Source: an uncultured Acetobacteraceae bacterium
GTDB lineage: Bacteria; Pseudomonadota; Alphaproteobacteria; Acetobacterales; Acetobacteraceae
Assembly (NCBI GenBank): GCA_903895595.1
Contig: CAITUP010000019.1
Coordinates: 1-64,000 of the forward strand
DNA: 64,000 nt
Reading direction: 5' to 3'
Each line of letters starts with the position of its first letter. Positions within the stretch are counted from its first letter, which is position 1. Made by a program: the position numbers and the translations under genes. A model generated the notes under the pieces. It did not search any database. It saw only the letters and a list, made by a program, of their open reading frames with translations, and was not told where the DNA came from. Below are positions 1,590 through 21,856 of this stretch, piece after piece.

Positions 1590-1624
1590 CACCCCGTCGA
1601 AGGCTATTAGGAAAGGATAAGTCC

Positions 1625-2086: not shown

Positions 2087-2403
2087 TTGCCGCGCCACCA
2101 CAATCGGCGTCCGACACTTACCCCCGTTCCTTTTGACGGAGCGGGGGCCGTAAAATACGCAGGTCATTAGCCCGCGTGCAGGTATCCCGGTCGGGGCCGC
2201 GCCGCCAGCTCAAGATCCCGCGCGTAGCGCCAACCGCGCGGACGCGGCCAGGGCCTTTGGCTCAGCCGCTTCAGGTCGGGCGTTTCGCCGCTGGCATCGG
2301 AAATGCGGACGAAATCGGATGGGCCGTCCGGTACCAGGTCCGCATAAATGGGATTGCGGGTTCGACAGCGCGACATTGTAGGGCGGGAAGGTCGAATAGG
2401 TGT

Positions 2404-2519
2404 GATACCAACGGACCTAACCATTGACACATCGGCGCGTGGTAAATCGTCATGCCGACGCAGGTCAGCATGACGATGTGGCGAATTCCGGTGCGTCAAT
2501 GGTTAGTTCGGTTGGTATG
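2404..2519. repeat. Palindromic element with 24-bp terminal inverted repeats
   Basis: The arm at 2405-2428 begins ATACCAAC and ends CCATTGAC; its inverse lies at 2495-2518, with 22 of 24 positions complementary. Inside, ATCGTCATGC and GCATGACGAT form a second 10-bp stem around a 12-nt loop. The whole unit can fold on itself and codes for nothing. An 11-bp match to its end (ATCATACCAAC) occurs near 60853, beside another mobile relic. It is probably a MITE or REP-like relic of a family different from the CAGGG elements. Confidence 0.6.
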
Positions 2520-2712
2520 ATAGTTCAGCCCCAGCAGCGAACCGGCGGCCAATGCGGCCGGTCCGAACGCCGTGGTCGGTTCCGGCACCATGACGCCGGG
2601 CGCGGAGCGGATCGCGTATTGCCCGAAATGGAACAGCAGGCGGAACCCCCAGGCAACGATAAAACCTGTTTGCCGGGCCGCCGAACGGATACGATCGCGG
2701 TGGCTGCGGACA

Positions 2713-2942
2713 TGGGGCTATCGCATATGACCTTTGGCGCCGCCGCTCGTCATGGTCGGGCGTGACCCTGTGTGACCGGGATGATCCCTGACACTTATAC
2801 CGAGATGATGGTTGACAGTATTCCTGCTTTGTTCCACCGGCAATTGGCAATCGCTCGCCGTTCTCCCCATTGGCGCGAGATGGTCGGGTCAGGCCCGACC
2901 ATGACGGAGAGTGTCGGAAATCCGCCATATGCGATCCCCCGG
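2713..2942. mobile_element. CAGGG-family MITE, copy 1 (degenerate)
   Basis: The left end reads GGGGCTATCGCATATG, the right end CATATGCGATCCCC, near-perfect inverses. The right arm contains the family hairpin TGGTCGGG-tcagg-CCCGACCA at 2881-2901. The flanking decamers 2703-2712 and 2943-2952 agree at 7 of 10 positions, as expected for an old 10-bp target duplication. Arm types: 'CCTTTGGCGCC' arm on the left, 'GGAAATCCGCC' arm on the right, the same orientation as the copy at 60637. It carries about 100 bp of unique DNA between the arms and no open frame of note. Confidence 0.7.
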
Positions 2943-3122
2943 ACTGCCGGCATGGGGCGACTTCCCTTCCTGTCGGCGATGCGCCGCGGATGACAAGAAG
3001 GGTCGTGGGCGGGTAGAGACGGCGGCAGGATAGGAAATTACGCAGGTTGCTCCGCAATTTCCGCCCCTCCCGATGGGGCCGCGCGACAGATACGAACGAC
3101 GACAGCCATTGGATAAATCGGA

Positions 3123-5696: not shown

Positions 5697-5765
5697 CCGC
5701 GCCGGGGCGGATGTATGCCCGATCGTTCGCACTGTTTCTGGATCGGGTGAAGCTGGCGCCGGACT

Positions 5766-5804
5766 GAGTGGTTTCCGTTCCCGCCGCGCAGCCGCGGAAA
5801 CGCG
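5766..5804 (+). terminator. Hairpin downstream of mgtA
   Basis: GTTTCCG at about 5770 pairs with CGGAAAC at about 5796 around a GC-rich loop, 70 nt past the mgtA stop. No clear U-run follows, so this is a possible rather than canonical terminator. Confidence 0.3.
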
Positions 5805-5938
5805 TTGTTGGGGCCCGCCGACATTTCGGATGCAACCTCGGGAACACGCGCATGGACATGGACGGGAAACCGGGCGTCAGCACGTGCTTTGTTGCTCCGC
5901 TGCCTTCGGGCTAAGCTCCCCGCCAAGGAGAGAACGCC

Positions 5939-7645: not shown

Positions 7646-8826
7646 CCGAACGTCCGGTGTTGCGGCTTGCCCAAGGTCAGGGCAAGCGGCTGCGGGCGGG
7701 GTCGCCCTGGGTGTTCAGCAACGAAATCGCCATGAAGCCGGAATACCGGCAGATGGAGAAAGGCGGGCTGATCCGGCTGGAAAGCGACGACGGCGTGCGG
7801 TTCGGCACGTTCATGTTCAACCCGCACAGCCTGATCGCCGCTCGGCTTTTGGACCGCGACCCAGCGGCCGAGATCGATACCGCCTGGATGTTCCGGCGCC
7901 TGGAAACGGCGCTGGCGCTGCGGTCGCGCATCATGGAGGGCACGTTCTACCGGTTGGTGCATGCCGAGGCCGACGGGCTGCCGGGCTTGATCGTCGATCG
8001 CTACGACGACGTGGCCGTGGTGCAGGCGAACACCGCCGGGATGGACCGGCTGATGCCGCTGATCGTGTCCGGATTGCGGGCTTTGTTGCCATTACGGGCC
8101 GTCGTCGCCCGGAACGACGCGGCGGCACGGCAGCAGGAGGGGATGGCCGCGGATGTCCGGCTGCTGTTCGGCGACGATGCCTCGTCCGTCGTGGAGGAAG
8201 GAGGGGTCCGCTTCTCCGTCGATCCGCTCGGCGGCCAAAAGACCGGGTGGTTCTTCGATCAGCGGTTTAACCGGGATCGCGTCGCGGCTTTGGCGTCCGG
8301 CGCGCGGGTGCTGGACGTGTGCTGCCACGTCGGTGCCTTCGGTCTGCGCTGCGCGGCGGCGGGGGCGGCTTCGGTGACTTTGGTGGATTCGTCGGCGCCG
8401 GCTTTGGCGCAGGCGCGGGATACCGCTTTGGCCAACGGGTTCGCGGATGTCGTGACCTTGCGGCGAGAGGACGCGTTCGACGCGCTCGGTCAGTTGGCCG
8501 GGACGCAGGAGCGGTTCGATATCGTCATCTGCGATCCGCCCGCCTTCGCGAAATCCCGCAAAGACGCCGAGGCCGGGTTACGGGCTTACGGGCGGATGGC
8601 GCGTCTCGCCGCTTCCGTGGTGGCGACCGGCGGATTCCTGTTCACCGCGTCCTGCAGCCACCACGCGTCCGCCGATGCCTGGGCGGCACAGATTGCCTTC
8701 GGGCTGCATCGCGCCAAGCGGGAGGGCCGGATTTTGTTCAGCGGCGGTGCCGGGATGGATCATCCGGTGCATCCCCATCTGCCGGAGACGGCGTATTTGA
8801 AGGCGATGTTGTTGGGGGTGGCGTAG
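7642..8826 (+). CDS. rlmI: Class I SAM-dependent rRNA (cytosine-C5) methyltransferase, RlmI-like
   Basis: 394 residues from a TTG at 7642 that overlaps the upstream stop (TTGA), close to the 396 residues of E. coli RlmI, which methylates C1962 of 23S rRNA. An N-terminal PUA-like domain (LRLAQGQGKRLRAGSPWVFSNEI) is followed by the EEHD-like linker (EADGLPGLIVDRYDDV). The Rossmann methyltransferase domain has SAM motif ARVLDVCCHVGAFGLRCA, then FDIVICDPPAFAKS (DPPAF motif) and the catalytic-loop cysteine in TASCSHH. The start is fixed by length and overlap; no ATG lies upstream in frame near the junction. A diverged copy of its last 90 codons lies at 9856-10143. Confidence 0.88.
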   Translation: MTERPVLRLAQGQGKRLRAGSPWVFSNEIAMKPEYRQMEKGGLIRLESDDGVRFGTFMFNPHSLIAARLLDRDPAAEIDTAWMFRRLETALALRSRIMEGTFYRLVHAEADGLPGLIVDRYDDVAVVQANTAGMDRLMPLIVSGLRALLPLRAVVARNDAAARQQEGMAADVRLLFGDDASSVVEEGGVRFSVDPLGGQKTGWFFDQRFNRDRVAALASGARVLDVCCHVGAFGLRCAAAGAASVTLVDSSAPALAQARDTALANGFADVVTLRREDAFDALGQLAGTQERFDIVICDPPAFAKSRKDAEAGLRAYGRMARLAASVVATGGFLFTASCSHHASADAWAAQIAFGLHRAKREGRILFSGGAGMDHPVHPHLPETAYLKAMLLGVA

Positions 8827-8877
8827 GAGAAGATGACGGCATGGTGTCGGATTCGCGGGCGGCAAGATGTTTCAATA

Positions 8878-9300
8878 TCAGTCCGTTTTCCATGCCGCGC
8901 AAAACGGCGCATCCGCCGAGGGTTGCGACGTCAATTGGACGATTGCTTCGTAGCAAAAGCCCTTCTTTTCATCGCACCAAGCGGCTGTCAGACTTTTTGG
9001 ACAACCGGGCAGTGGCGTCAGGGTAAAGCCTCGCGAAGGTTCCGCCGGCAAACGGATCGAGCAGTTTCGTCCGTCATGCCGCTCCAGGATGGGTGGCACA
9101 TTCTCGGTAAAGGTCGCGTCGGGACGGGTCAGCCAGACCGACAGGCGCCGGTTGGCGACATCGATGGCAAGCCCCTCGGATACCAGTTTGGAATGGGACG
9201 GCGACGCCGCCAGAGGAGAAGGTGCTGGGCAATCGCTCGGTTCGGTTAACGAACATCCAGCGAGCCCGAGCACCACCAGCACCCAGGCTCGGGTTGTCAC
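8878..9300 (-). CDS. Lipoprotein of unknown function
   Basis: 140 residues. Signal peptide MTTRAWVLVVLGLAGC with lipobox LAGC at about 13-16. The mature part carries several cysteines (SDCPAP, RNCSIRL, PGCPKS, AWCDEKKGFCYEA, PFCAAW) that could form disulfides in the periplasm. It is translationally coupled to the upstream thioredoxin-like gene (ATGA overlap at 9297-9300), suggesting the two proteins work together, perhaps with the thioredoxin-like partner acting on these cysteines (inference). The pair sits between the two copies of the methyltransferase 3' end. Confidence 0.7.
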   Translation of the reverse strand: MTTRAWVLVVLGLAGCSLTEPSDCPAPSPLAASPSHSKLVSEGLAIDVANRRLSVWLTRPDATFTENVPPILERHDGRNCSIRLPAEPSRGFTLTPLPGCPKSLTAAWCDEKKGFCYEAIVQLTSQPSADAPFCAAWKTD

Positions 9301-9797
9301 GCCAAACCGACCTCCTTGCGGATCGCAGGGACGATGTCCGTGTTCCAGTCCTCGATGCCGTAGCCGGCCATCAAGTACTTGTTCTCCCGCGTCAACACGA
9401 ACAGCGGTGTCGCCATCAGGAGCTGGTGCTTATAGGCCTCGTCCAGAATCCAGCGATGGTTTCCGACCCAATCTGGGTTCAACTGGTACGAGAGTTCTCT
9501 CGTGGGCGAATGAAGCACGATGAGACGCACCTTCTGGCGTTCAACCGACTCCTTGAACCGCGGGAAATAGGCGCGTTCGAAATATGTGCAGGTGGGACAG
9601 GCATTACTGGCAACAACATACAATGTCGGTGCGCTAGATGGGAGTTGCGCTTCGCGCTCGGCGTCCTGTCCGGCGGCGTAGGACGGCGGCTCAGACGCGC
9701 AACCCGTCAGAAGACCGGAGCCTGCCAAGAACAAGCCGGTTAGAGCCGAACGGCGGGTCGGGTCGGTCAGGAGGGGAAAGGATGGGGTACTGGTCAT
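9297..9797 (-). CDS. Thioredoxin-fold lipoprotein with CPTC motif
   Basis: 166 residues from the ATG at 9797, chosen because purine-rich GTGAGAG lies directly upstream; an ATG at 9824 would add nine residues. The leader has Arg-Arg before a hydrophobic stretch and lipobox LTGC, so export by Tat or Sec with lipid anchoring is likely. TLYVVASNACPTCTYFERAY carries a CxxC redox motif at the start of a thioredoxin fold, and MATPLFVLTRENKYL gives the cis-Pro loop (ATP). It fits a periplasmic thiol-disulfide protein. It forms a two-gene operon with the downstream Cys-rich lipoprotein. Confidence 0.7.
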   Translation of the reverse strand: MTSTPSFPLLTDPTRRSALTGLFLAGSGLLTGCASEPPSYAAGQDAEREAQLPSSAPTLYVVASNACPTCTYFERAYFPRFKESVERQKVRLIVLHSPTRELSYQLNPDWVGNHRWILDEAYKHQLLMATPLFVLTRENKYLMAGYGIEDWNTDIVPAIRKEVGLA

Positions 9798-9855
9798 CTC
9801 TCTCACTTTCAGTGGTACAGACATAACAACGGAGTTTTACTCTCAACAGACTGTC

Positions 9856-10143
9856 CTCGCAAGGACGCGGAAGCCGGGTTGCGGGCGTATGGGCGTATGG
9901 GCGTATGGGCGGATGGCGCGTCTGGCGGCGACGGTGGTGGCGCCGAACGGGTTTTTGTTCACGGCTTCGTGCAGCCATCATGCGCCGGCCGATTCCTGGG
10001 CCGCGCAGATCGCTGCTGGGTTGTACCGAGCAAAGCGGGATGGACGGATTTTGTTCAGCGGTGGGGCTGGGATGGATCATCCCGTGCATCCGCATTTGCC
10101 GGAGACGGCTTATTTGAAGGCGATGCTGCTGGGGGTGGGGTAG
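9856..10143 (+). pseudogene. Truncated second copy of the rlmI-like 3' end
   Basis: From about 9856 the translation (RKDAEAGLRAYGR..., then LFTASCSHHAPADSWAAQIA and FSGGAGMDHPVHPHLPETAY) matches the C-terminal 90 residues of the methyltransferase ending at 8826. Nucleotide differences fall largely at third codon positions, so both versions evolved as working genes before this one was truncated. It has no start and is frameshifted by extra copies of an 8-bp repeat at 9883-9914. It is most easily read as the displaced original or a foreign 3' end flanking the inserted lipoprotein/thioredoxin pair. Confidence 0.85.
9883..9914 (+). repeat. 8-bp tandem repeat (GGGCGTAT)3 plus GGGCGGAT
   Basis: Three perfect GGGCGTAT units followed by one variant unit lie inside the methyltransferase 3' fragment. 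The intact gene has one related unit pair at the same place, so two units (16 bp) were added here, shifting the frame. Typical slipped-strand expansion. Confidence 0.85.
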
Positions 10144-10187
10144 CGACCGAACGGCACCGCGACGCGGTCGACGACACCGCGTTTTAA

Positions 10188-10219
10188 CCCAGAGACCCAG
10201 AGGCCCAGAGGCCCAGAGA
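10188..10219 (+). repeat. 8-bp tandem repeat (CCCAGAGR)4
   Basis: Four contiguous units with period 8 (CCCAGAGA or CCCAGAGG) in the non-coding gap between the methyltransferase fragment and the epoxide hydrolase gene. No function seen. Confidence 0.8.
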
Positions 10220-10369
10220 GGGAGTGACCGGATATGCCCCGGTCGCCGCGATGGCGAGAGGGTTTGTATTCGGCACTTCGATGTGTTTCGTCGCAGCGCG
10301 ACCGACGCCGCTCTTGACCACCCGCACCCCTTGCCGCTTGATCCCCCTGGCCACCGACGGAACCCATCT

Positions 10370-11518
10370 ATGTCCCCACGCCCCTTCACGCTGCATGTCC
10401 CGGACTCCGATATCGCGGATCTCAAGACACGTCTGGCCCTGACCCGGTTCCCCGACGCCGCGCCCGGCGAGGATTGGGCCTACGGCACCAGCGTGCCCTA
10501 CGCGAAGGAGCTGGCCGAGTACTGGCAGACGCAGTTCGACTGGCGGGCGCAGGAGGCCGCGTTGAATGCCTTCCCGCAGTTCAAGGCCGCACTGCATGGG
10601 ATCGACCTGCATTATCTGCATGTGCCGGGGAAAGGGCCGAACCCGACGCCGTTGCTGCTGCTGCACGGCTGGCCGGGATCGGTGTTCGAGTTTCTGGATA
10701 TCATCCCGCGCCTGACCGATCCGGCGGCGTTCGGGGGCGACCCGAAGGATGCGTTCACGGTCATCGCACCGTCGCTGCCGGGTTACGGGCTGTCGTTCGC
10801 ACCAGGGCAGAAGCGGTTCACATTGCAGGATATTGCTGCCTGCGTACACGATTTGATGACCCGGACGCTGGGGCATTCGAAATACGCGGTGCAGGGCGGC
10901 GACTGGGGCGCGGGGATTTCGTCCATGCTCGGCCAGACGCAGCCGGCCAGCCTTTACGGCCTGCACATCAACCTGCTGTTCGTCCCCCGCGACCGCCCGA
11001 CGGGCGAGCCGACCGAGGAGGAAAAACGCTACGGCGACGAACTGGTCTACTGGCTGAAGGAAGAAACCGGCTACCAGCAGATACAGGGCACCAAACCGCA
11101 AACCCTGGCGTTCGGTCTGACCGACTCCCCCGCCGGCCTGATGGCCTGGATCGCCGAGAAGTTCCGCACATGGTCCGACTGCGACGGAATCGCGGAAAAC
11201 GCCATCGCGCGCGACCGCATGCTGGGCAATATCGCGCTGTATTGGTTTACCGGCGCCATCGGGTCGTCGTTTTGGCCGTATTACGGGCGGATGCACGCGC
11301 CGTCCTGGCCGCTGCATCCCGGCGCGCCGGTCACCGCGCCCACCGGCTACGCGGCGTTTCCCAAGGAAATCCTGCAACCGCCGCGTTCGGTCGCGCAAAA
11401 GACCTACACCAATATCCAACGTTGGACCGTCATGAAAAAAGGCGGCCATTTCGCGGCCATGGAACAGCCGGCCGCGCTCGCCGAGGAGATCCAGGCGTTC
11501 TTCCGACCCCTCCGATAA
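10370..11518 (+). CDS. Epoxide hydrolase (microsomal EH-like, alpha/beta hydrolase)
   Basis: 382 residues from the ATG at 10370; the usual N-terminal sequence (RPFTLHVPDSDIADLKTRLA) follows directly, which fixes the start. The N-terminal EHN lid domain occupies about 5-110. The oxyanion motif is HGWPGS (about 98-103). The nucleophile lies in GGDWGAG, Asp178, where lipases have Ser, as required for epoxide opening through an ester intermediate. The charge-relay His is His360 in GGHFAAMEQP. It hydrolyses epoxides to diols in the cytoplasm; substrate unknown. The next gene, a flavin-dependent oxidoreductase 19 nt downstream, may be co-transcribed and suggests a terpene or xenobiotic route (inference). 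Confidence 0.88.
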   Translation: MSPRPFTLHVPDSDIADLKTRLALTRFPDAAPGEDWAYGTSVPYAKELAEYWQTQFDWRAQEAALNAFPQFKAALHGIDLHYLHVPGKGPNPTPLLLLHGWPGSVFEFLDIIPRLTDPAAFGGDPKDAFTVIAPSLPGYGLSFAPGQKRFTLQDIAACVHDLMTRTLGHSKYAVQGGDWGAGISSMLGQTQPASLYGLHINLLFVPRDRPTGEPTEEEKRYGDELVYWLKEETGYQQIQGTKPQTLAFGLTDSPAGLMAWIAEKFRTWSDCDGIAENAIARDRMLGNIALYWFTGAIGSSFWPYYGRMHAPSWPLHPGAPVTAPTGYAAFPKEILQPPRSVAQKTYTNIQRWTVMKKGGHFAAMEQPAALAEEIQAFFRPLR

Positions 11519-11537
11519 CCATCAAGGAAATACGATC

Positions 11538-12737
11538 ATGTCTCATGACGGCCTGCGCTTCGGCATCTTCCTGGCACCGTTTCACCGTGTCGGCGACAAC
11601 CCCACGTTGGCATTGGATCGCGATCTGGAGCTGATCCAGTGGCTCGATCACCTCGGCTACGACGAAGCCTGGATCGGCGAGCACCACTCGGCCGGCTGGG
11701 AAATCATCGCGTCGCCGGAAATCTTCATCGGTGCCGCCGCCGAACGGACCCGGCATATCCGTTTGGGTTCGGGCGTGACCTCCCTGCCCTATCACCACCC
11801 GCTGATGGTGGCGCAGCGCTTCGTGCAGTTGGATCACATGACGCGCGGACGCGCGATGCTGGGCTGCGGGCCGGGCGCTTTGGCGTCGGACGCGTATATG
11901 ATGGGCATCGAGGCCGACACGCAGCGGCCGCGGATGGATGAGTCGCTCGGTGCGATCATGGCGCTGCTGCGCTGCGAGGAGCCGGTCAACATCAAAACCG
12001 ACTGGTTCGAACTGCGCGATGCCCGCCTCCACCTGAAGCCCTGGACCAAGGGCGGCTTCCCCATCGCGGTGGCGAACGTGACGACTCCCGCGGGCGCGCG
12101 CGCCGCCGGCAAGCATGGCGTGGGCCTGCTGTCCATTGGCGCCGGTCTGCCGGGTGGGCAGGCGATGCTGGCGGAAAGCTGGAAGGTCGTGGAAGCCGAG
12201 GCGAAAGCCTACAACAAGACCGTCAGCCGCGATAATTGGCGCCTGGTCGTGAACATGCACTGCGCCGAGGACGACGAGCAGGCGATGCGCGAATGCCGCA
12301 TCGGCGAACGTCTGGAAACCCAGACGTATTTCTCCGAGACGCTCGGTCGCCCCCCGATGCGGAGCGAAAACCCGCTGGCCGAGGGTTTGGCGAACGGCAC
12401 CACTTTGGTCGGCAACCCCGACACGGTGGCCGACGGCATCCGCCGTTTGCTGGCGCATACCGGCGGTGGCGCGGGCGCGGTGCTGTTCCGGTCGCACGAA
12501 TGGGCGAACCGGAAGCAGACGTTGGACAGCTACGAGCTGTTCGCGCGCTGGGTCATGCCGCAGTTCCAGGACACCGCGACGCAGCCCATCGCGTCCCGCA
12601 ACTGGGCCAGCGACAACCGCGGCGGCATTTTCGCGCCGGCCATCGGCGCGCTGAAGAAGGCGTTCACCGACGCCGGCCAGCAAGCGCCAGAGCTGATGCG
12701 GTTCCAGCTGCACACCGGCAAGACGCCGGTGGAGTGA
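11538..12737 (+). CDS. LLM-class (luciferase-like) flavin-dependent oxidoreductase
   Basis: 399 residues, a bacterial luciferase-like TIM barrel. Features: RFGIFLAPFH at the N-terminus, DEAWIGEHHSAGW (the EHH loop of flavin/substrate contact), SGVTSLPYHHP, FVQLDHMTRGRAMLGCGPG, and a C-terminal extension EWANRKQTLDSYELFARWVM typical of the limonene-1,2-monooxygenase-like subgroup. It would use reduced FMN and O2 supplied by a separate reductase. Start is the ATG with AAGGAAA 8 nt upstream. It lies downstream of an epoxide hydrolase, a pairing that would open an epoxide made by a monooxygenase; that pathway link is inference. Confidence 0.85.
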   Translation: MSHDGLRFGIFLAPFHRVGDNPTLALDRDLELIQWLDHLGYDEAWIGEHHSAGWEIIASPEIFIGAAAERTRHIRLGSGVTSLPYHHPLMVAQRFVQLDHMTRGRAMLGCGPGALASDAYMMGIEADTQRPRMDESLGAIMALLRCEEPVNIKTDWFELRDARLHLKPWTKGGFPIAVANVTTPAGARAAGKHGVGLLSIGAGLPGGQAMLAESWKVVEAEAKAYNKTVSRDNWRLVVNMHCAEDDEQAMRECRIGERLETQTYFSETLGRPPMRSENPLAEGLANGTTLVGNPDTVADGIRRLLAHTGGGAGAVLFRSHEWANRKQTLDSYELFARWVMPQFQDTATQPIASRNWASDNRGGIFAPAIGALKKAFTDAGQQAPELMRFQLHTGKTPVE

Positions 12738-12741
12738 AATT

Positions 12742-12774
12742 CCGCCATGGTCGGGCCTGACCCGACCATGGCGG
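12742..12774. terminator. Bidirectional hairpin terminator derived from a repeat element
   Basis: CCGCCATGGTCGGG (12742-12755) pairs perfectly with 12761-12774 around a 5-nt loop, a 14-bp stem. It fills the 38-nt gap between the convergent stops of the flavin oxidoreductase (12737) and ppa (12776). The core TGGTCGGG-cctga-CCCGACCA is the same hairpin as in the CAGGG-family mobile elements elsewhere in the window, so a fragment of that family appears to serve as terminator. No U-run. Confidence 0.7.
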
Positions 12775-12775
12775 T

Positions 12776-13309
12776 TCAGGCCTTTTTCGCGGCCCGCTCG
12801 ATGGCTTCGGTAATGAATTTCCGAGCCTCGGCGGCGTCGCCCCAACCGATGATTTTGACCCATTTGCCTTCTTCGAGGTCCTTGTAGTGCTCGAAGAAAT
12901 GCCGGATCTGATCGAGCGTGATCTGCGGCAAATCCGTGTAGTTGTGGACGTTGACGTAGCGCTTGGTCAGCTTGGGCGAGGGCACGGCGATGATCTTTTC
13001 GTCCCCGCCGCCGTCGTCGTTCATTTTCAGCACGCCGACCGGGCGGACGTTGATGATCGCACCGGGGATAATCGGGCGGGTGTTGGCGATCAGCACATCG
13101 ATCGGGTCGCCGTCGTCGGACAAGGTGTGCGGCACGAAGCCGTAATTGCCGGGGTAGCGCATGGGGGTGTGGAGGAAGCGATCGACCACCAGGGTGCCGG
13201 CGTCCTTGTCCATCTCGTACTTGATGGGTTCGCCGCCGATGCCGACTTCGACGATGACGTTGATGTCCTCGGGCGGGTTGATGCCGATTTTGATGGCTTC
13301 GATGCGCAT
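12776..13309 (-). CDS. ppa: Inorganic pyrophosphatase (family I)
   Basis: 177 residues, typical for bacterial family I enzymes. Hydrolyses pyrophosphate to two phosphates with Mg2+ in the cytoplasm, driving biosynthetic reactions. Visible: [29 protein letters not shown] and the signature [10 protein letters not shown] with its three metal-binding aspartates, then DEKIIAVP and [11 protein letters not shown]-like [11 protein letters not shown] near the C-terminus. GGAG lies 6 nt before the ATG. It starts 12 nt after the PIN-domain gene on the same strand, so it could be read through from that module. Confidence 0.95.
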
Positions 13310-13321
13310 GGGGTGCTCCGG

Positions 13322-13834
13322 TTATTGGCGTCGGCGGGGAATAAGGGCCGGGGTGGTGGGTTGATAGGCTTTCAGGCCGGCGTCGCCGGTGAGGATTTCG
13401 ACGGCAAACCCGGCTTCGGCGTAATACTCGGCGACATCTTTGATGGTCGCATCGCCGATTGAGAGGCCGCCCGCGGCAAGGGCTGGCCATGACGCGGCAA
13501 GTGTCTTGAGTTGATCGGTGCGCCAGAGATCGTCCTGATCGGCGAACGCCGCCCATGGGGAGTTTGCGTCGGCGGCGGCGGCGATCAGCCTGGCAAGGTC
13601 AGTGGCCAAAGCGAAGCGGTCGCCAGGCGCCTGCGCGATGTGGTTGCCTGTTTCGATAATGCTGGCGAGCGGCAGCACGAAGGTGGCCTCCTGTTTTGTC
13701 TCATCGGCGACCAAGATGGCGATCCGGTCGTGATCCCACCGGTCGTCTCTCGGGCCAGCGGTGTCCTTTCCGGGAATTTTGAGAAGGCAACACAGGATCG
13801 ACGTGTCGAAGATCAATATCCGGCGTGGCATCAC
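13322..13834 (-). CDS. PIN-domain-like protein, putative ribonuclease paired with an ATPase
   Basis: 170 residues. The N-terminus RRILIFDTSILCCLL places Asp10 on the first strand as in PIN nucleases; Glu61 (IIETGNHI), Asp128 (SIGDATIKDVAEYYAE) and Asp151 (EILTGDAGLKAY) are well placed for the remaining acidic metal ligands. PIN proteins cut RNA and often act as toxins. The gene overlaps the end of the upstream ATPase gene by 4 nt, so the two are translationally coupled. No small antitoxin is present, so it is not a standard VapBC pair. Assignment rests on motif reading only. Confidence 0.6.
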   Translation of the reverse strand: MMPRRILIFDTSILCCLLKIPGKDTAGPRDDRWDHDRIAILVADETKQEATFVLPLASIIETGNHIAQAPGDRFALATDLARLIAAAADANSPWAAFADQDDLWRTDQLKTLAASWPALAAGGLSIGDATIKDVAEYYAEAGFAVEILTGDAGLKAYQPTTPALIPRRRQ

Positions 13835-15102
13835 GCTGCCTGTTCGGCTGGCGTCTTCAATTCCTGCTCGATCAGGCCTTCGCTCGACAACCGGCCGACG
13901 CGGCCGTGCGCCAACAGTTTGGGCAGTTGCTTAATGTCTTCCAGCAACGTCAGTTCGCTGGCTCCCGTGGTCGGGGCTCTGTGCGCGACGGTTATAAAGG
14001 GCAGCAGCGCCGTGCCCATCGCATCCAATAGCGCAGGGTTGTGGGTTGTCACGAGGATGTCGACGCCACGTTCCTGTCCGACTTTACGCAGCATTCTGAG
14101 CAATAATTCAGAGCGCGAAGGATGCAGGCCATTGTCCACATCTTCAATGATAAGCAAGCTATTGGAGGGCCTTGTCAGAAGCGCGGTCAAAATGGCAAGA
14201 AACCGCAATGTGCCATCGGACATTGTCCGCGCATCGACAGTCGATGGTTTGCCAGCCGCCTGAAATCGTTCATCGCAGTAAAGCATGGCATCGGTGTTGA
14301 ATTTCCCCACAGTCTCCGCATAAACGCGGGCGACATCGAGTTCGGGGAGTTTCGACGCATAATCGGTCAGTATGTTCGCGATTTCCGGTTGTTCGTCCGC
14401 AGACAGGGCAGCAATCACACCTGCGATATTGCTCCCATCCGATTCCAAGCGATGCGACAGCGACGAAAAACCACGCATGTGGTTTGGATTTGGATCGAGA
14501 AGGAATACCCCTTTAATGGCGTCTAATACGTCGCGGAGCCCTTGATCGAGTTGCGAATGGGTCCTTTGGCTCAGGAGTTGGGATGCGATGCTGTAGGACC
14601 TTTCGAATGTCTGTCGGCGTCCGTAATCCCCATTCAGTAAATGCGCGTCTATCGACTGCGCCGTAAGTAGCGCATTGCTGGTCTTGAACAGTATCTGTGC
14701 CCGATCTACCACCGCTATACGTTGGTTATTGGCGTTTAAATCGAATTCAGTGAAAGTTAGCTCCTCCGAAATTAGATCGCATCGATTCTCGTGAATTATA
14801 CATTCGATTCTGTAGGCGTGCTCCCATTTTCGACCTACCCCGTATGTAATGCCAATTGCGAAGCAATCTCCGGGCTGGTGGGCGGCCCACTCGAGGCCGC
14901 CTCGGAGCGGCAGGATCACTCCGTCTCCTCGCAACGCGGCAGTCAACGAGATCCCATGTGCTGTCCGGCTCAAGAAAGCCAAAGCTTCCAGCAGATTCGA
15001 CTTCCCGCTCGCATTCGTCCCGATCAGCACCGTCAACGCGTCGATGTTCAGCGTCGCCTTCTCGAAGCTTTTCCAGTTCTCGACGGTTAGGGAGGTCAGC
15101 AC
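13831..15102 (-). CDS. AAA_21/RecF-like ABC-type ATPase
   Basis: 423 residues. Starts MLTSLTVENWKSFEKATLNI, the typical opening of AAA_15/AAA_21 and RecF-like ATPases. Walker A GTNASGKS at 28-35; signature motif MSDGTLR at 294-300; Walker B LLIIED at 316-321 with the D-loop; His switch TTHNP at 352-356. All catalytic residues are present, so it should bind and hydrolyse ATP as a dimer. The gene is visibly richer in A/T than its neighbours, suggesting transfer. Coupled to a PIN-like gene downstream. ATPases of this type are sensors or regulators in OLD, Septu, PARIS and Abi systems; a defence role is inference. Confidence 0.75.
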   Translation of the reverse strand: MLTSLTVENWKSFEKATLNIDALTVLIGTNASGKSNLLEALAFLSRTAHGISLTAALRGDGVILPLRGGLEWAAHQPGDCFAIGITYGVGRKWEHAYRIECIIHENRCDLISEELTFTEFDLNANNQRIAVVDRAQILFKTSNALLTAQSIDAHLLNGDYGRRQTFERSYSIASQLLSQRTHSQLDQGLRDVLDAIKGVFLLDPNPNHMRGFSSLSHRLESDGSNIAGVIAALSADEQPEIANILTDYASKLPELDVARVYAETVGKFNTDAMLYCDERFQAAGKPSTVDARTMSDGTLRFLAILTALLTRPSNSLLIIEDVDNGLHPSRSELLLRMLRKVGQERGVDILVTTHNPALLDAMGTALLPFITVAHRAPTTGASELTLLEDIKQLPKLLAHGRVGRLSSEGLIEQELKTPAEQAA

Positions 15103-15232
15103 GGGGCTTCATTCCAATGAGGGTTAGGCCGGCCGCAACCGGCTGGACGCAGACGTCTTATAGCAGCCGGATGCCCGCCATATAACCCCCGACCGCATCC
15201 CGCACTCCGGGCTTCCATCGCGGCCGCGGAAA

Positions 15233-16393
15233 TCACCCCTCCCCGTCCTTCCGGAACGGAGACTCCTCCGCCAACGCTGCCATATCGCCGATAATCCCCG
15301 CCCGTTCCTCCACCAGGAAATGCGCGACCGCGCGTCGCAAGCCGGCATGTGCGATCCAATGCGCGGAATAGGTCGGTTTCGGCAGATAGCCGCGCTGGAT
15401 TTTGTGGCGGCCTTGGGCGCCGGCTTCGACGCGTTGCAGGCCGTGTTCGATGGCCCAATCGATCGCGCGATAATAGCAAAGCTCGAAGTGCAGAAACGGA
15501 AAATCGCCGCGGCAGCCCCAGTTGCGGCCGTACAGCGCCTCGGACCCCGCCAAATTCAAAGCGCCCGCGACGGGGACGCCGGCGTTCTCGGCGTACATCA
15601 GCACCACGCGGTGGCCGAGCCGTTCGCCCAACAACGAAAAGAAGCGGCGGGTGAGGTAGGCGGAACCCCATTTGCGGTCCACCGTCGATTGGTAGAAACG
15701 GTAGAACGCGTCCCAATGCGCCTCGGTGATATCGCTGCCGGACAGGGCGTGGAACGTCAGGCCGCAGGCGTTGGCGTCGCGGCGTTCGCGGCGCAGGACC
15801 TTACGCTTACGGGACGACAGCGCGCCGAGAAACCCCTCGAAATCGGCGTAGCCGTGGTTTTCCCAGTGGAATTGCATGCCTAGGCGCTGGAGCCAACCGA
15901 CTTCTCCCAGCGCGCCCCATTCGTCTTCCTGACAGAAGGTGACGTGGACGGAGGATAAATCCAGCGACTGGCACGCTTGTTCCAGCGCGTTCGCCAGGGC
16001 CGCGACGGGCACGCCGGTGCCGGGACGGCGCAACAGCCTCGGGCCGGGGACGGGGCTGAACGGGACCGCGACTTGCAGCTTGGGGTAGTAGGCGTTGCCG
16101 GCACGCTCCATCGCCTGTGCCCAGCCGTGGTCGAAGACGTATTCGCCGTAGCTGTGGGTTTTCGCGTACATCGGCATCGCGGCGACGATTGTTCCGTCGG
16201 CGGTGCGGAGCACCGCGTGCTGCGGCATCCAGCCGGTGCGGGAATTCGCCGATCCGCTGTCCTCCATCGCGCTGAGGAACGCGTGGCAGACGAACGGGTT
16301 GCCCTCGCCGGCGCAGGCGTCCCAGTCGGCCTCGGGGATTTCCTCGATCGCCGGGTGCAGCGTCAGAGTCAGCGTCGCGGAACCGTCCGGCAT
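15233..16393 (-). CDS. FemAB/GNAT-like protein (DUF482 family)
   Basis: 386 residues, the family's normal length. N-terminal half includes NPFVCHAFLSAMEDSGSA and HSYGEYVFDHGWAQA; the C-terminal half includes DAFYRFYQSTVDRKWGSAYL, GALNLAGSEALYGRNWGC and EAGAQGRHKIQRGY, the strongly conserved block of DUF482. The fold is related to the GNAT/FemAB acyltransferases, sometimes annotated as peptidoglycan-related, but the reaction is not established. The gene lies 10 nt upstream-coupled to RidA's end on the same strand, so both may be transcribed together. Confidence 0.8.
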   Translation of the reverse strand: MPDGSATLTLTLHPAIEEIPEADWDACAGEGNPFVCHAFLSAMEDSGSANSRTGWMPQHAVLRTADGTIVAAMPMYAKTHSYGEYVFDHGWAQAMERAGNAYYPKLQVAVPFSPVPGPRLLRRPGTGVPVAALANALEQACQSLDLSSVHVTFCQEDEWGALGEVGWLQRLGMQFHWENHGYADFEGFLGALSSRKRKVLRRERRDANACGLTFHALSGSDITEAHWDAFYRFYQSTVDRKWGSAYLTRRFFSLLGERLGHRVVLMYAENAGVPVAGALNLAGSEALYGRNWGCRGDFPFLHFELCYYRAIDWAIEHGLQRVEAGAQGRHKIQRGYLPKPTYSAHWIAHAGLRRAVAHFLVEERAGIIGDMAALAEESPFRKDGEG

Positions 16394-16403
16394 GGCACGT
16401 CCT

Positions 16404-16871
16404 TCAATCGATCTCGAACAATCCTTCGACCTCGACCGCCGCGTCGGCCGGCAGCGACGGCACGCCGATCGTGCTGCGGGCGTGGCGGCCGGCGTCGCCG
16501 AACACCGCCACCGCGAGGTCGGAGGCGCCGTTCATCACCACCGCGTGCTGGGTGAATTCCGATGGGGCGGAGATGAACCCGCCCAGCCGCACCACGCGGC
16601 GGACGCGATCCAGGTCGCCGTCGCAGGCGGTCTTCAAATGCACCAGCGTGTTGATGAAGCAGATACGCGCGGCCTCGACCGCGCGATCGATGGACACGCC
16701 CCAGCTGACCTTGCCGGTGACGACCACGACGCCGTTGAGCATCGGAATTTGGCCGGACACAACCACCAGATTACCGGTCTTCACGAAGGGCACGTAGTTG
16801 GCGATGGGCGTGGTGGGCAGCGGCAGGGTGATGCCGAGTTCCGCCAGCCGCGTGTCGATCCGTCCCGCCAT
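16404..16871 (-). CDS. RidA family protein (YjgF/YER057c/UK114)
   Basis: 155 residues. FVKTGNLVVVSGQIPM, the conserved LVHLKTACDGDLDRVRRVVRLGG and the C-terminal ARSTIGVPSLPADAAVEVEG are hallmarks of the longer YjgF/RidA subgroup. RidA proteins deaminate reactive enamine/imine intermediates formed by PLP enzymes. The pocket Arg (HARSTIGV) is present; the subgroup here is not the archetypal RidA, so its substrate is uncertain. Followed 10 nt later by the DUF482 gene. Confidence 0.85.
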   Translation of the reverse strand: MAGRIDTRLAELGITLPLPTTPIANYVPFVKTGNLVVVSGQIPMLNGVVVVTGKVSWGVSIDRAVEAARICFINTLVHLKTACDGDLDRVRRVVRLGGFISAPSEFTQHAVVMNGASDLAVAVFGDAGRHARSTIGVPSLPADAAVEVEGLFEID

Positions 16872-16919
16872 GGTGTCATGCTCCTGTCTTCAACAAGCCG
16901 GAGCGTAACCCGCCCTTCC

Positions 16920-18425
16920 CTACTTGGAAACAACCCGCAGCGCGCGCCTTCGTGCCCGTGGCGAGGCATCGGCCGGGAGTTCCAGCGGCAGCAGCGGCGA
17001 ACCGTCGCGGGGGCCGTTGCCGATGGTGTCTGCTTCCTCGATTTCGGCGTCCGGGATGTCGCGCCTTCCCAGGTAGTTCGCGGCGAGATTACGAAAAGTG
17101 TAGTCCAGCAGGGATGTGGCTTGGCGGACGGCGGGGTCGCCCTCGACCGATCCGGCGGGGCCGAAGCGGGTGAAGGTGAAGGCCTCCACGAAGGCTTCCA
17201 GCGGCACGCCGTGCTGCAGGCCGAGGCTGACGGCGGCCGCGAAATTGTCCATCAGGCCGCGGAAGGCGGCGCCTTCCTTGTGCAAAGCGATGAAGATCTC
17301 GCCCAGCGCGCCGTTGTCGTATTCGCCGGTGCGCAAATACATCTTGTGGCCGCCGACCAAGGCTTTCTGCGTGTAGCCGGCGCGACGGGCCGGCAAATCG
17401 GCGCGGGCGGCGACCGGCAGCGGTTGGGTCAGGACGCCGGGGCGCGCGGGCATGGACTCGATGTAGGGCGCGACAGCGTCGTACATCTGCGCGTGTTCGG
17501 CGCTGCCATAGCTCGGAATCGGCGTGCCGCCGGCCATGGACATCGCGAGCGCTTCCTCGGCTGTTACGCCGCTGACCGCGAGCCAGGCGCGGGCGGCTTT
17601 GCTCAGGCCGCCGGAGGGCAGCAGGGGCGAAAACGCCGGGGCGATGCCGCCGGTTTCGACGCCGAGCAGGGCCTCGGCGGGGCCGGGGGCGACGATGGCG
17701 GTGCAGGCAATGTGGCGCAGGCCTTCGACCGCAAGGGCCTGTTGGCGGGCGGCGCGGGCGGCCTCGGCGAGGCCGGGGACGGCGGTGCGCGTGGGCGGCA
17801 CCGGCCAGTCCATCGGGGCCGGGCGCATCGCGTCGGTCAGGCGGGCGATCCGGCCGGAGGCGATGTCGGCACGACCGCGCAGAATGGCGGCCAAGGCGCG
17901 GGCGATGTCGCGGGCGTCGTCCGATCCGTAAGCGATCCCCAGCGCGCACAGCAGGCCGGACAGATCGGCCATGGTGACGGACAAGCGGGCGGAGGCGGGG
18001 GCGGCGTAGCTGAGGGCGACGACGGCGGTTTCCACAGCTTCGGCGAAGGCACCGGCATCGAACAGGCCGGCGCTGTCGAGGAACGCCGGAAGATTGAGGA
18101 CGAAGCCGGGGTTGGGGGTGGGCAGGCCCTGCCAGACGGAATCCGTGGGGGCGCCGCGGCGGAGTTGCAGCAGCCAGTGCAGGCGGTCGGCGAAGGACGG
18201 CTCCATACCGGCTTTGCAGGCGCGTTCGGCGACGGGCCGGATCCAGGCCTCGGCGGCGGCGGGCAGCGCGGCGGGCCCGTGGCCGGGGGCGAGGGCGGCG
18301 AGGCCGGCGGCGGCGGAATCCTCCCACGACGCGGGGATGGTCACGGCCCGCGCGGGTTCGTCGGGATCGGCGCCTGCGTCGGTGCGGCGGAGGCGGACGC
18401 CGTGCCAGGAGCGGTGGATTTTCAT
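16920..18425 (-). CDS. TSCPD-domain protein related to B12-dependent ribonucleotide reductase
   Basis: 501 residues from the ATG at 18425 (a further in-frame start at 18521 adds a low-complexity Pro stretch and is rejected). Residues about 370-475 contain [38 protein letters not shown] and [14 protein letters not shown], which match the C-terminal TSCPD block of NrdJ class II ribonucleotide reductases. The middle part ([14 protein letters not shown]) is only loosely reductase-like. There are only three cysteines, none in a CxxC pair, so it cannot do the thiol-radical chemistry. It may be a regulatory or scaffold paralogue; such proteins occur in acetic acid bacteria. Confidence 0.7.
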
Positions 18426-18587
18426 GGGGGGATGATAGGGCGGGTTTGGCGGGGTTGGAAGCGTATTTAGGGGGTGGATGGGGGTTGGGGCACAATATCC
18501 TGTGGATAACGTTGCCCCCACGATGGCAGGCTATCCCGGCATCGCACGATACCGTAACACTGTCGCAAAGCGCTGCGCCGATCGTCC

Positions 18588-20411
18588 ATGGTGGACATAG
18601 GCACCGACTGCCGAATGGTACCGATGCCGCCGAGCCTGACCCAGTACCGGATTTTCCTCGCCGCCTCCGAAGGCATGACGAAAGAGCGCCAGCGTTTCCG
18701 GCAGGTCCTCGGCACCTACACCGCAACGAACAGCCAACCGCTTGGCGTCGCCTTCGTTCCCGTGGGACCGGACGACGAGGACCTTCGGCACTGCGACTAC
18801 GCGGTGTTCCTGCTGCCCGATCGCCGGGAACCGGCGTTGGGCCTCGCCGCCGCGCTGTACGACACCTATGACATCCGCAACATCTGGCTGTTTTCGCGGA
18901 CGGGCGATGCCGCCAGACCGCTCTCAACGGGTTTGGTCTTTGGAGGAAATGCCGAGGGCCCTCGGTATCGTCGCTTCACCTTCGGCGGCGCCGATTCGCT
19001 CGCCGACATCCTGGAACAGCAACTGGCGCGAAGCCTCCGTGCCCACGTGGCGGCGACAACCGACCCCTCCAAGCAGGGAGACCGCGGCGGGATCGCGCGA
19101 AGCCATCTCCGACGGTTCGGCGACGCTATCGCGGCCTTCGACACCCTCCACATGCGGCTCGGCGGTGCCACGGACGCGGATGCGCGCCACCGGGCTGGAC
19201 AGGCACGCGTCAATAAGGGGCTGACCCTCGCCGCCATGGGCCGGGAGGAGGAAGCGATCGCGGTTTACGACGATCTCCTGGCCGCCTGGAGCGAAACCGA
19301 GGACGAAGCCGTGGGCGTGCATCGCGCCAACGCACTTTACTACAGGGGTGTCGCGCTCGCCGCTCTTGGCCGGCACGAGGACGCGGCGGGCACGTTCGAT
19401 CGCTTTCTCGCCCGATACCGCAATGCCCCCGATACCCCGGATGGCCCGCCGGTCGCCTTGACTTACAGCGGCTTGGGCGGCGCGCTGATGGCCCTCGGCC
19501 GGCACGAAGAGGCCATATCGGTCCACGAGGACATGCTCGCGCGTTTCGGGTCCTCCGCCGAGCCGGCCTTGCGCGCGTCGATCGCCGACGCGTTGTTCCT
19601 CCTGGGTGTCGCGTTCGGCGCGCTCAACCGGACCGGGGCGGCGATCGCTGCCTACAACGAACTACTGACCCGCTTCGACGATGCGCCCGAAGCAGCGCTG
19701 CGGGAAAGAATCGCCCGCGCCTGGTTCAACAAGGCGGTCCGGCTTGGGATGCTGGGCCGGTTCGGGGAAGCGGTCGCGGCCTTCGACGCTTCGGTCGCCC
19801 GGTGCGGCGATGCCTTGGAACCGGCCCTGCGCGTGTTGATCGCCTCCGCCCTGTTCAATAAGGGCGTCGCCCTAAGCGCACTCGGCCGGGGCGAGGCGGC
19901 AATCGCGGCCTATGGCGATCTGCTGAGCCGGTTCGGCGCGGGGACCGAAACGCCGCTCCGCGAACATGTCGCCAAGGCGCTGGTGAACACCATCGTCTCA
20001 CTCGCCGCGCTCAACTTTGGGGAACAGGCGCTGGCGGTCTGCGACGAGATGCTGGCGCGGTTCGGCACGGCAACGGAAACGCCACTGCGCGAACAGGTCG
20101 CCATGGCCCTCGACACCAAAGCCATCACGCTGGGGATGCTCAACCGGATCGACGAGGCAATCGCAGTCTGCGACGATCTTCTGCGCCGGTTCGGGACTGC
20201 CACGGAACCGGCCTTCCGCGGCCCGCTCGCCAATGCGCTGCTGACCAAAGCGGTCGCGCTGGGCCTGCGCCACCGCACCGCGGAGGCGATCGCGGTCTAC
20301 GACGATCTGCTCGCCCGCTTCGGCACCGCCACCGAAGCCTCAATTCAAGAGGTCCTAAAAGTAGCGCTCGTCCGTAAACGGTCCGCCGAGGCGACACTGC
20401 CAAAATCGTGA
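18588..20411 (+). CDS. TPR-repeat protein with an N-terminal DUF4062-like domain
   Basis: 607 residues; in-frame Mets follow at residues 10 and 13, the latter (PPSLTQYRIFLAASEG) being where recognisable sequence begins. The first 140 residues (YRIFLAASEGMTKERQRFRQ ... LRHCDYAVFLLPDRRE) look like DUF4062/TIR-like Rossmann folds, with the 'ASE...ERQRF' opening of that group. Residues about 180-600 are eight or so TPR-like helical pairs with a period near 44 residues, each with an EAIAVYDDLLARFGTATE-type consensus. No transmembrane segment. Proteins joining such an N-terminal domain to TPRs are often sensors in signalling or defence; here it stands alone. No partner gene is seen. Confidence 0.65.
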   Translation: MVDIGTDCRMVPMPPSLTQYRIFLAASEGMTKERQRFRQVLGTYTATNSQPLGVAFVPVGPDDEDLRHCDYAVFLLPDRREPALGLAAALYDTYDIRNIWLFSRTGDAARPLSTGLVFGGNAEGPRYRRFTFGGADSLADILEQQLARSLRAHVAATTDPSKQGDRGGIARSHLRRFGDAIAAFDTLHMRLGGATDADARHRAGQARVNKGLTLAAMGREEEAIAVYDDLLAAWSETEDEAVGVHRANALYYRGVALAALGRHEDAAGTFDRFLARYRNAPDTPDGPPVALTYSGLGGALMALGRHEEAISVHEDMLARFGSSAEPALRASIADALFLLGVAFGALNRTGAAIAAYNELLTRFDDAPEAALRERIARAWFNKAVRLGMLGRFGEAVAAFDASVARCGDALEPALRVLIASALFNKGVALSALGRGEAAIAAYGDLLSRFGAGTETPLREHVAKALVNTIVSLAALNFGEQALAVCDEMLARFGTATETPLREQVAMALDTKAITLGMLNRIDEAIAVCDDLLRRFGTATEPAFRGPLANALLTKAVALGLRHRTAEAIAVYDDLLARFGTATEASIQEVLKVALVRKRSAEATLPKS

Positions 20412-20481
20412 ACGTCATGGACGTTCACCAAAAACAATACCAGCAGCCGCCCCATGGCGACTTGGAACACGCCGGGGTCGA

Positions 20482-20670
20482 CAGGGCTATCGCATATGGC
20501 GGATTTCCGACACTTTCCGTCATGGTCGGGCCTGACCCGACCATCTCGCGCCCATTGGGCACCGGGCGAAACACCCCGCCTTTTCAATGGTGCGTAAACG
20601 CGCAGAAGATGGTCGGGTCACGCCCGACCATGACGAACGGGGGCGCCAAGGGTCATATGCGATAGCCCTG
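20482..20670. mobile_element. CAGGG-family MITE, copy 2 (complete, perfect target duplication)
   Basis: 189 bp. Terminal inverted repeats of 17 bp are perfect: CAGGGCTATCGCATATG at 20482-20498 and its inverse at 20654-20670. It is flanked by an exact 10-bp direct repeat CCGGGGTCGA at 20472-20481 and 20671-20680, the mark of transposition. Each arm contains the family hairpin (TGGTCGGG pairing with CCCGACCA). The arm carrying GGCGGATTTCC lies on the left and the one carrying GGCGCCAAGGG on the right, so it is inverted relative to the copies at 2713 and 60637. No coding capacity. Confidence 0.88.
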
Positions 20671-20739
20671 CCGGGGTCGATGCGCCCAAGCAGACGGGTG
20701 CCGCGGGGGACGCCGATCGGGCAGGTTTTTTTCGGACGG

Positions 20740-20817
20740 TGCCCCATTGGCGTGAGATGGTCGGGTCAGGCCCGACCATGACGGGAAACGCGGGAAACCG
20801 CCCTATGCGATCCCCTG
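20740..20817 (+). repeat. Solo half-element of the CAGGG family (first)
   Basis: 78 bp starting TGCCCCATTGGC and ending CTATGCGATCCCCTG, with the hairpin TGGTCGGG-tcagg-CCCGACCA at its centre. It corresponds to one arm of the MITE ('GGAAAcCGCC' type) without its partner. A second direct copy lies 123 bp downstream. Confidence 0.75.
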
Positions 20818-20862
20818 CCCGCGATCTTACGCAGCATTGAGAACGCTGCATTTTTCTGACAT

Positions 20863-20940
20863 TGCCCCATTGGCCTGAGTTGGTCGGGTCAAGCCCGACC
20901 ATGACGGGTATGCGGGAAACCGCCCTATGCGATTCCCCTG
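20863..20940 (+). repeat. Solo half-element of the CAGGG family (second)
   Basis: 78 bp, the same length and orientation as the one at 20740, and about 88% identical by eye. Starts TGCCCCATTGGC and ends CCCTATGCGATTCCCCTG; hairpin TGGTCGGG-tcaag-CCCGACCA at 20881-20901. It is followed 55 bp later by the start of the HGGxSTGP protein gene. Confidence 0.75.
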
Positions 20941-20995
20941 GGGAGGGGCCGCGTCGTGCTTGCCTCGGTTGGGGGGTGGCCGATAAGAACGTAGG

Positions 20996-21856
20996 ATGAA
21001 CAAACCATCCGATCGCGCCTTGGGCGCACATCGTTCGTCGCCGGCTGGGCAGCGCTCGGCGAACTCCTTCGACACGCTGATGGGCAGCAGCGTTTTGGCG
21101 GCTGGGGCGTTGCCGCATGTGGGGCCGCCCGGGCCGGTGACGGTGCGCGGATTGCCGCGATGGGCGCAACACCCCTTACACCGTGAGCCTCCGGTGGAAG
21201 CGCTTGTGCGGGACGCCACGCGTATGTTGGAAATCCTCGCGACCTGTCGGGCACCGGCTTCGCCGTTGGATGTTTGCCTGAAGGAGGCCAACGGGCGCGC
21301 GCGTGCGACGGCGGTGCGGCAAGACCCCGTGCACCGTGAGCGGAGGGCCGGACCGCTGCGGAATGGGAACCCTCGGGGCAATCCGAACCTCGCGCCCCGC
21401 TGCGGCGCCAAGACCCGGCTCGGGTGTCCGTGCAGAAGCCCGGCGATGGCGAACGGGCGGTGCCGGATGCATGGGGGGGCCTCGACGGGGCCGAAAACGG
21501 CGGCAGGGAAGGCGCGAATCGCCGCCGCGCTGGTGCTTCGTGGGAACAAGGAGGCTCGGGTGATCGAGGCGCATGCTACGGCCACGATCCGGCGCGGCAA
21601 AGTTCTGGCGGCAGCAGTGGATGCCGGGCTGAAGCTGGAGTCTCTGGCCGCGCCGCTGCGGGCGGTGCTGGGGGTGCCGGCGACAAAGGGCGACGCGCGG
21701 CTGTTCGTCGCGGATACGCTGCTGCATCGCGATCTGACCTGGGCGGAAACGCGGCTGCTGGTGGCGGAGATTCGAGGGATGCAAAAGCCCATACAACGTG
21801 AGCGACGAATTCCCGCATCGCCAGGATGGACCTCGGCCCCCGGCCCGATTATATGA
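20996..21856 (+). CDS. HGGxSTGP-domain protein
   Basis: 286 residues. The core, about residues 130-185, reads RCGAKTRLGCPCRSPAMANG then CRMHGGASTGPKTAAGKARI: four Cys and one His spaced like a small zinc-binding knuckle followed by the HGGxSTGP motif. Proteins with this motif are common in phages, integrative elements and alphaproteobacterial chromosomes, and their function is unknown. Residues 1-125 lack family signatures and contain repeated short PLHREPP/PVHRERR segments, so the true start may lie further in. It borders a repeat-rich region upstream and a housekeeping operon downstream. Confidence 0.55.
   Translation: MNKPSDRALGAHRSSPAGQRSANSFDTLMGSSVLAAGALPHVGPPGPVTVRGLPRWAQHPLHREPPVEALVRDATRMLEILATCRAPASPLDVCLKEANGRARATAVRQDPVHRERRAGPLRNGNPRGNPNLAPRCGAKTRLGCPCRSPAMANGRCRMHGGASTGPKTAAGKARIAAALVLRGNKEARVIEAHATATIRRGKVLAAAVDAGLKLESLAAPLRAVLGVPATKGDARLFVADTLLHRDLTWAETRLLVAEIRGMQKPIQRERRIPASPGWTSAPGPII

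Follow-up and report, generated by a model that had tools for sequence, protein, structure and literature searches.

A short element with perfect inverted ends and a 10-bp target duplication

The window, by which we mean the whole stretch of 64,000 nucleotides that was analysed, carries a 189-bp element at 20482-20670 whose terminal inverted repeats agree at 17 of 17 positions and which is flanked by exact copies of the 10-mer CCGGGGTCGA. These copies, identified by reading of the sequence and by the duplication tally described below, occupy 20472-20481 on the left and 20671-20680 on the right, with no strand assigned to either. The left terminal inverted repeat, CAGGGCTATCGCATATG (20482-20498, + strand), is of the right-type variant, with CT at positions 6-7. 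The right repeat (20654-20670, - strand) is its exact reverse complement and reads CATATGCGATAGCCCTG on the + strand. The first-pass annotation had described perfect 17-bp ends starting with CAGGG and an exact 10-bp duplication, and both can be read directly in the sequence. The perfection of the ends, however, is peculiar to this copy. In the consensus of the 187-191 bp class, the ends differ at positions 6-7 (GG on the left, CT on the right) and are therefore identical at 15 of 17 positions, whereas the window copy has the right-type CT at left and right alike, making the perfect match a trait of this copy that is absent from the family consensus. Over its whole length the window copy is 92.9% identical to that consensus, compared with 99.5% for the best copies of the class. 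In one MAG, two contig ends (L200 and L201; JANYDF010000103.1 and JANYDF010000033.1) each bear a right-type ISAs1 end adjoining an identical 10-mer in opposite orientation, as if they belonged to one element with two right ends, resembling the window copy.

The element starts about 70 bp downstream of a TPR-like frame (18588-20411). Two 23-bp palindromes lie in its arms (20522-20544 and 20609-20631). Together with its CGTC tag, the first occupies 20518-20544 on the + strand and reads ATGGTCGGG-CCTGA-CCCGACCAT, a 9-bp stem with a 5-nt loop. The second (20609-20635, - strand) also has its tag facing outward, seen as GACG on the + strand, and is separated from the first by a spacer of 64 bp (20545-20608, no strand assigned). 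Both arms contain units of the form CGTC-ATGGTCGGG-nnnnn-CCCGACCAT. Folded as single-stranded DNA, the element reaches -70.1 kcal/mol, whereas shuffled sequences average -34.3 (z -11.0). An Rfam search of 20000-21200 returned no match up to E 1.

At up to 3 mismatches, the 17-mer end motif matched 7 times in the window, with 0.14 matches expected from shuffles, and the palindrome pattern matched 8 times against 0.10 expected. A second complete copy, belonging to a 102-bp class with a single palindrome, lies at 60637-60738 (- strand) between exact copies of the 10-mer GTGTCCCGGC. The window also contains a degenerate copy of 230 bp (2713-2942, - strand), whose ends have 2 and 1 mismatches to CAGGGNNATCGCATATG and whose flanking 10-mers differ at 3 positions. 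Two half-element relics, likewise on the - strand, are found at 20730-20819, with one palindrome and one degraded end, and at 20827-20940, with one palindrome and the end CAGGGGAATCGCATAGG.

Copies and target duplications across the genome

The genome to which the window belongs (G000; 5.46 Mb, 99.6% complete) is a draft of 170 contigs. Scanning it at up to 1 mismatch revealed 153 end motifs, against 0 for a reversed control pattern. We counted a copy as complete when both ends were found within 60-260 bp, with at most 3 mismatches per end and at most 4 in total. The 56 complete copies come from stretches of this genome that were picked by matches and cover part of the 153 ends; for 53 of them at least 20 flank bases were available on both sides, and these were used for the duplication tally. 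A 10-bp target duplication was exact in 19 of the 53 copies and present within 1 mismatch in 30, whereas none of 2756 pairings of flanks across different elements agreed at length 10. At other lengths, exact matches numbered 0 at 5-9 and at 11-14 and one at length 4, while a tolerance of 1 mismatch added one copy at length 8 and one at length 9. The other 23 copies had no 10-bp duplication within 1 mismatch, and the 30 target sites share no strong consensus. Further copies with 10-bp duplications, which the first-pass annotation had proposed to look for, are thus present in numbers.

Two size classes account for most complete copies: 34 of the 56 are 187-191 bp long and 12 are 102 bp. The 189-bp class has two palindromes, 87 bp apart, and the 102-bp class one. 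In the 102-bp class (12 copies of exactly this length), 6 copies have the loop CCTGA, 4 have TCACG, and one each has TCAGG and TCAAG. Since left-type and right-type loops both survive in this class, we infer that the pair collapsed several separate times and not once. An 82-bp copy on C26 retains an exact duplication although it has no whole palindrome. In two copies, C1:32022 and C17:18602, the palindrome loops come in the opposite order with respect to the ends, as would follow from an inversion of the core. Being short and devoid of a transposase gene, with terminal inverted repeats, target duplications, many copies and ends of a known IS family (see below), the elements constitute a family of MITEs.

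For ten sites, the joined flanks were used as a single query in a search of the 33 genomes of the genus that scored 9 candidates in each. At the locus of the copy at C16:82509, G028 (71% identity) and G010 (66%) align across the junction and lack the element, although at 66-71% identity the target 10-mer of these empty sites is not comparable letter for letter. None of the remaining nine sites aligned across the junction in these 33 genomes; for the window's own site, no other genome matched that part of the query. The comparison with empty sites in relatives that had been recommended for the window element therefore yielded a syntenic empty site in two relatives at the locus of another copy. 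We also read nine long frames across reconstructed empty sites as candidate insertions inside genes; they looked mostly antisense or spurious, and we claim no gene disruption.

The ends match ISAs1-family insertion sequences of relatives

ISAs1 ends are described in a Frankia paper as 14-22 bp long and starting with CAGGG, and 10-bp duplications are reported there (PMC11946415). The window element has ends of 17 bp that start with CAGGG, a 10-bp target duplication, and ends homologous to those of insertion sequences (IS) of relatives that encode an ISAs1 DDE transposase (L163 and L164/L128). It differs from ISAs1 IS in having no transposase gene, in its size (family members are mostly 189 or 102 bp, against about 1.2-1.3 kb) and in its palindromic core.

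Of the 33 genomes of the genus, 27 gave a match to the NCBIfam model of the ISAs1 transposase, in 25 cases above the cut-off; G000 was not among the 27. The ISAs1 IS of the genus have related ends in some cases and different ends in others. An IS of 1328 bp in G028 (C151, L128; L164 in record JANXTL010000044.1) is bounded by CAGGGCTATCGCATATG and CAGGGGATTCGCATATG and contains an ISAs1 transposase gene, a 278-aa frame of which matches NF033564 (E 2e-100) as well as the Pfam families DDE_Tnp_1 and DDE_Tnp_1_assoc. In L128 the frame is broken into two overlapping pieces, with a TGA in one. A second IS, of 1211 bp, in the MAG of the uncultured Acetobacteraceae KR_bin-3349 (L163), holds an open frame of 382 aa that ends in ...KGHMR* and whose stop codon falls inside the right inverted repeat. 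Over its last 235 residues this protein shares 86% identity with the L118 protein, whose own match to NF033564 has E 1.3e-71.

We compared the MITE consensus with the ends of these IS. The left-end segment, 20482-20509 on the + strand of the window, corresponds to consensus positions that match L163 at 27/31 and L164 at 27/31. The right-end segment (20645-20670, + strand), which derives from the 3' end of the transposase gene, matches L163 at 25/26 and L164 at 24/26, and the TAG within the right terminal inverted repeat of the window element stands at the stop position of the parental transposase (..HMR*). As a chance control, the best 31-mer match to the left end on the + strand of window positions 1-20000 was 18; for the right end the same control (best value 24/26) was compromised, since the stretch contains a relic copy. 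L103, which represents an ISAs1 group with different ends, matches the MITE consensus at 14/31 and 13/26. The guess that the element is related to ISAs1, made earlier from its CAGGG ends and duplication, is therefore borne out by IS of relatives in which an ISAs1 transposase lies between ends that correspond to the first 31 bp and the last 26 bp of the element.

Duplications were also sought at the IS themselves. L103 has an exact 10-bp duplication, TGCGCTGCAA, and two IS halves at contig ends of RH-23may17-181 (L192 and L196), which probably belong to one IS copy, have matching 10-nt flanks, GAGAGGCCCT. Among the complete IS with both flanks (L128, L110, L103 and L163) a clear 10-bp duplication is present in L103 only, a member of the group with different ends.

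Other transposase families make duplications of 9-13 bp, and no intact transposase was found in G000 to be named directly, so that mobilisation by another DDE family making 10-bp duplications has to be weighed. We regard it as very improbable, because the likeness between the MITE and the ISAs1 IS extends past the 17-bp ends: on the right it takes in the 3' end of the transposase gene, and on the left it continues as far as about base 28-31.

A transposase fossil in the host genome

The window had been noted to contain no transposase, and by model and translated searches we found no intact ISAs1 transposase in the whole of G000, window included; in a draft of 170 contigs a copy may have been missed. 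A translated search with the 382-aa protein detected one fragment in G000, of 42 residues and 79% identity (C147:12357-12482), corresponding to residues 337-378 of the transposase. An IS-type left end, CAGAGGATTCGCATATGACGG, lies upstream of the fragment, with other repeat sequence between them, and the two together indicate that such an IS was once present in this genome. The search for an ISAs1-family transposase with the same ends, as the first-pass annotation had advised, was thus successful in relatives but not in the genome itself, where no intact one was detected. Since the 189-bp element encodes no transposase and no intact one was found in G000, we file it as an ISAs1-derived MITE and not as an ISAs1 IS.

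Two candidates for the missing source were considered, of which the first was not supported and the second was rejected. The first was ISAs1 copies hidden at contig ends of this genome. In the copies compared there by eye, the sequence does not run on as in ISAs1 ends, although several have 41-61 bases left, which is too short to tell. This argues against many unassembled IS copies and leaves room for one. The second was the gene beside the right end on C120/C75, which proved to be a multi-copy host gene followed by an ISAs1-type remnant, old and about 90 bp long. Its 87-aa C-terminal fragment had no match in Pfam and one in NCBIfam, at E 0.087; its copies on C45 and at C156:58267 are without the remnant, and no CAGGG left end was seen upstream of the gene. 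This gene of about 260 codons occurs in G000 in L061 (1-412), L062 (1-600), L091, L092, L093, L094, L096 and L069, and the copies on C120, C75, C78 and C112 have the old ISAs1-type remnant behind the stop codon. A stretch conserved upstream of it, TTCTTGCTTTGTTC, recalls what we take to be the spacing of the alphaproteobacterial LexA box.

The palindromic core is a CGTC-tagged, REP-like pair

The hairpin in the arms had been read earlier as REP-like, and the palindrome does occur in G000 as a separate dispersed repeat too, with 395 palindromes of the type ATGGTCGGG/CCCGACCAT (at most 1 mismatch, tag not required). Among the first 50 listed, all perfect and located on C1-C32, 24 lie inside CAGGG-ended elements and 26 outside, one of the latter (C19:20757) in a half-element relic. 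We read 19 stretches covering 22 of the 26 outside sites and found single or paired palindromes with no element end at up to 3 mismatches; the same stretches contain two chance-like end hits at 4 mismatches, and in two of them a contig edge hides one side. In a twentieth stretch a contig end truncates an element, which was counted among the 24 inside. Since palindromes occur without element ends, they form a repeat that does not depend on the MITE, in which two of them are carried as a pair. Further short palindromic repeats, GTCATGCCGACGCAGGTCGGCAT-like and others, are nested in ISAs1 remnants and MITEs (L062 at about 390-580, L206 at 1331-1500, L078 at 1850-2300).

The units have the CGTC tag, the stem starting with AT (9 bp, within the 8-9 bp range) and the loop (5 nt, within 4-5 nt) of the CGTC REPs described by Di Nocera et al. 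2013 (PMC3733652), and they are paired in the same way, with a spacer in the range of 20-100 bp. They differ in that the pair is enclosed by transposon ends and in the unpaired tail, which is CTC in the element consensus, whereas most, though not all, tails of the CGTC REPs in that description fit CCA (PMC3733652). Because of this tail we call the unit CGTC-tagged and REP-like and assign it to no numbered CGTC family. By the same account, the CGTC REPs lack a dedicated transposase, their links to other transposase genes being few and fortuitous, and are missing from the Acetobacteraceae (PMC3733652), the family of the host and, by record title, of its relatives studied here. A palindrome pair inside a longer inverted repeat is also seen in the REP dimers CGTC-1 of H. 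neapolitanus and GTAG-15 of A. variabilis, for whose outer palindromes no transposon family is named in the section describing them (PMC3733652).

With a REP-like pair as the core and 26 of the first 50 listed palindromes outside complete elements (one in the half-element relic), the element could instead be a REPIN/BIME-like pair that owes its dispersal to a REP-associated tyrosine (HUH) transposase, the CAGGG ends being incidental. A search for Y1_Tnp (PF01797) gave 0 matches in G000, so no such HUH transposase was detected there, while 5 of 14 control genomes gave one. Moreover, inverted ends and 10-bp duplications are foreign to IS200/IS605 transposition, the known members of this group being described as without terminal inverted repeats or larger duplications (PMC2817692). 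Spread of the element by an HUH transposase is accordingly most unlikely in our judgement.

A second element family in the genus

Elements of 195-196 and 115 bp in G026, of the same genus, have a left end similar to that of the G000 family. Their palindrome is CGTC-ATCCTCGGG-nnnnn-CCCGAGGAT, and their spacer and right arm are also unlike those of the G000 family. In the five complete copies with both flanks (L257-L260 and L274) the 10-bp duplication is exact in 1, has one mismatch in 3 and is absent from 1. The exact pattern of the second palindrome occurs at 51 distinct sites in G026, 29 of which have an exact end no more than 200 bp away on their outer side. When the surroundings of the remaining 22 were read, a degraded end (at most 3 mismatches) was found at 12 and no end at 10, so that 41 of the 51 sites are in elements. 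G008 has 19 hits of this palindrome, and in G000 itself a 175-bp copy at C156:59536, with an exact duplication, carries it. The only ISAs1 transposase match in G026 adjoins a different, CAGGCGAATCGCTTGAA-like end. No cognate IS is therefore at hand in G026 either, which counts against the MITE serving as a vehicle for the palindromes, as may the 19 hits in G008.

The families built on ATGGTCGGG in G000 and on ATCCTCGGG in G026 share one layout, in which IS-type ends enclose a palindrome pair whose tags point outward, and each has a two-palindrome and a one-palindrome size class. They may reflect two captures, or else a single ancestral element that exchanged its palindromes later. In G023 (C184; L273, 385-666) a 282-bp element combines ISAs1-type ends with a palindromic core of a further kind; its duplication, CCGCCGGCGG, is exact.

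Origin and mobility

We propose that an ISAs1 DDE transposase, supplied in trans, would recognise both ends of the element and would move it, leaving 10-bp target duplications. We hold this with high confidence, on the strength of the ISAs1 ends, the duplications, the copy number, the IS of relatives with their transposase, the fossil IS and the empty sites at one locus. Multiplication of an immobile intergenic repeat through recombination or duplication of larger segments is the least credible alternative and can be given almost no weight. A few copies do have common flanks (C15/C38, and C120/C75, where the host gene in front of an old remnant has been duplicated), but the cleanly duplicated copies have mutually different flanks (0 of the 2756 cross pairs agree at length 10). 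Two relatives lack the element at one locus, and the duplications exclude this origin for the 30 copies having them.

With ISAs1 ends accompanied by a transposase in relatives, and only a 42-residue fossil in G000, the element is a non-autonomous ISAs1 derivative that was most likely moved in trans. That it is such a relative was the first-pass reading, and the duplicated copies and the IS ends of relatives support it; the movement itself was probably the work of an ISAs1 transposase, whose source would have been lost from G000 or is missing from the draft. MITEPye1 of Paracoccus yeei is comparable in being short and non-autonomous, with terminal inverted repeats, duplications and a long stem-loop, and it too is thought to be moved in trans, as we propose for the G000 MITE (PMC11578231). 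It differs in its ends, which are ascribed to the IS1182 family, and in being rare, with 1-3 copies reported in chromosomes (PMC11578231).

In the open-access literature searched, ISfinder being outside that search, we found no description of an ISAs1-derived MITE with REP cargo. An ISAs1-derived MITE alone is an ordinary kind of object; the palindrome cargo and the recurring layout are less so. G000 in addition harbours a numerous MITE family whose sole detected cognate transposase is a fossil. The MITE may have acted as a vehicle for the palindromes, and we suggest tentatively, at somewhat less than an even chance, that CGTC-tagged REP pairs spread in the genus as cargo of ISAs1-type transposition. 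The presence of palindromes in cleanly duplicated, transposon-derived elements, in two families within one genus, makes the question of REP dispersal testable with one transposase and one mini-element. If the cargo reading is true, DDE transposition would be one route by which CGTC-tagged REPs are dispersed, and collapse of the palindrome pair would be a source of single units.
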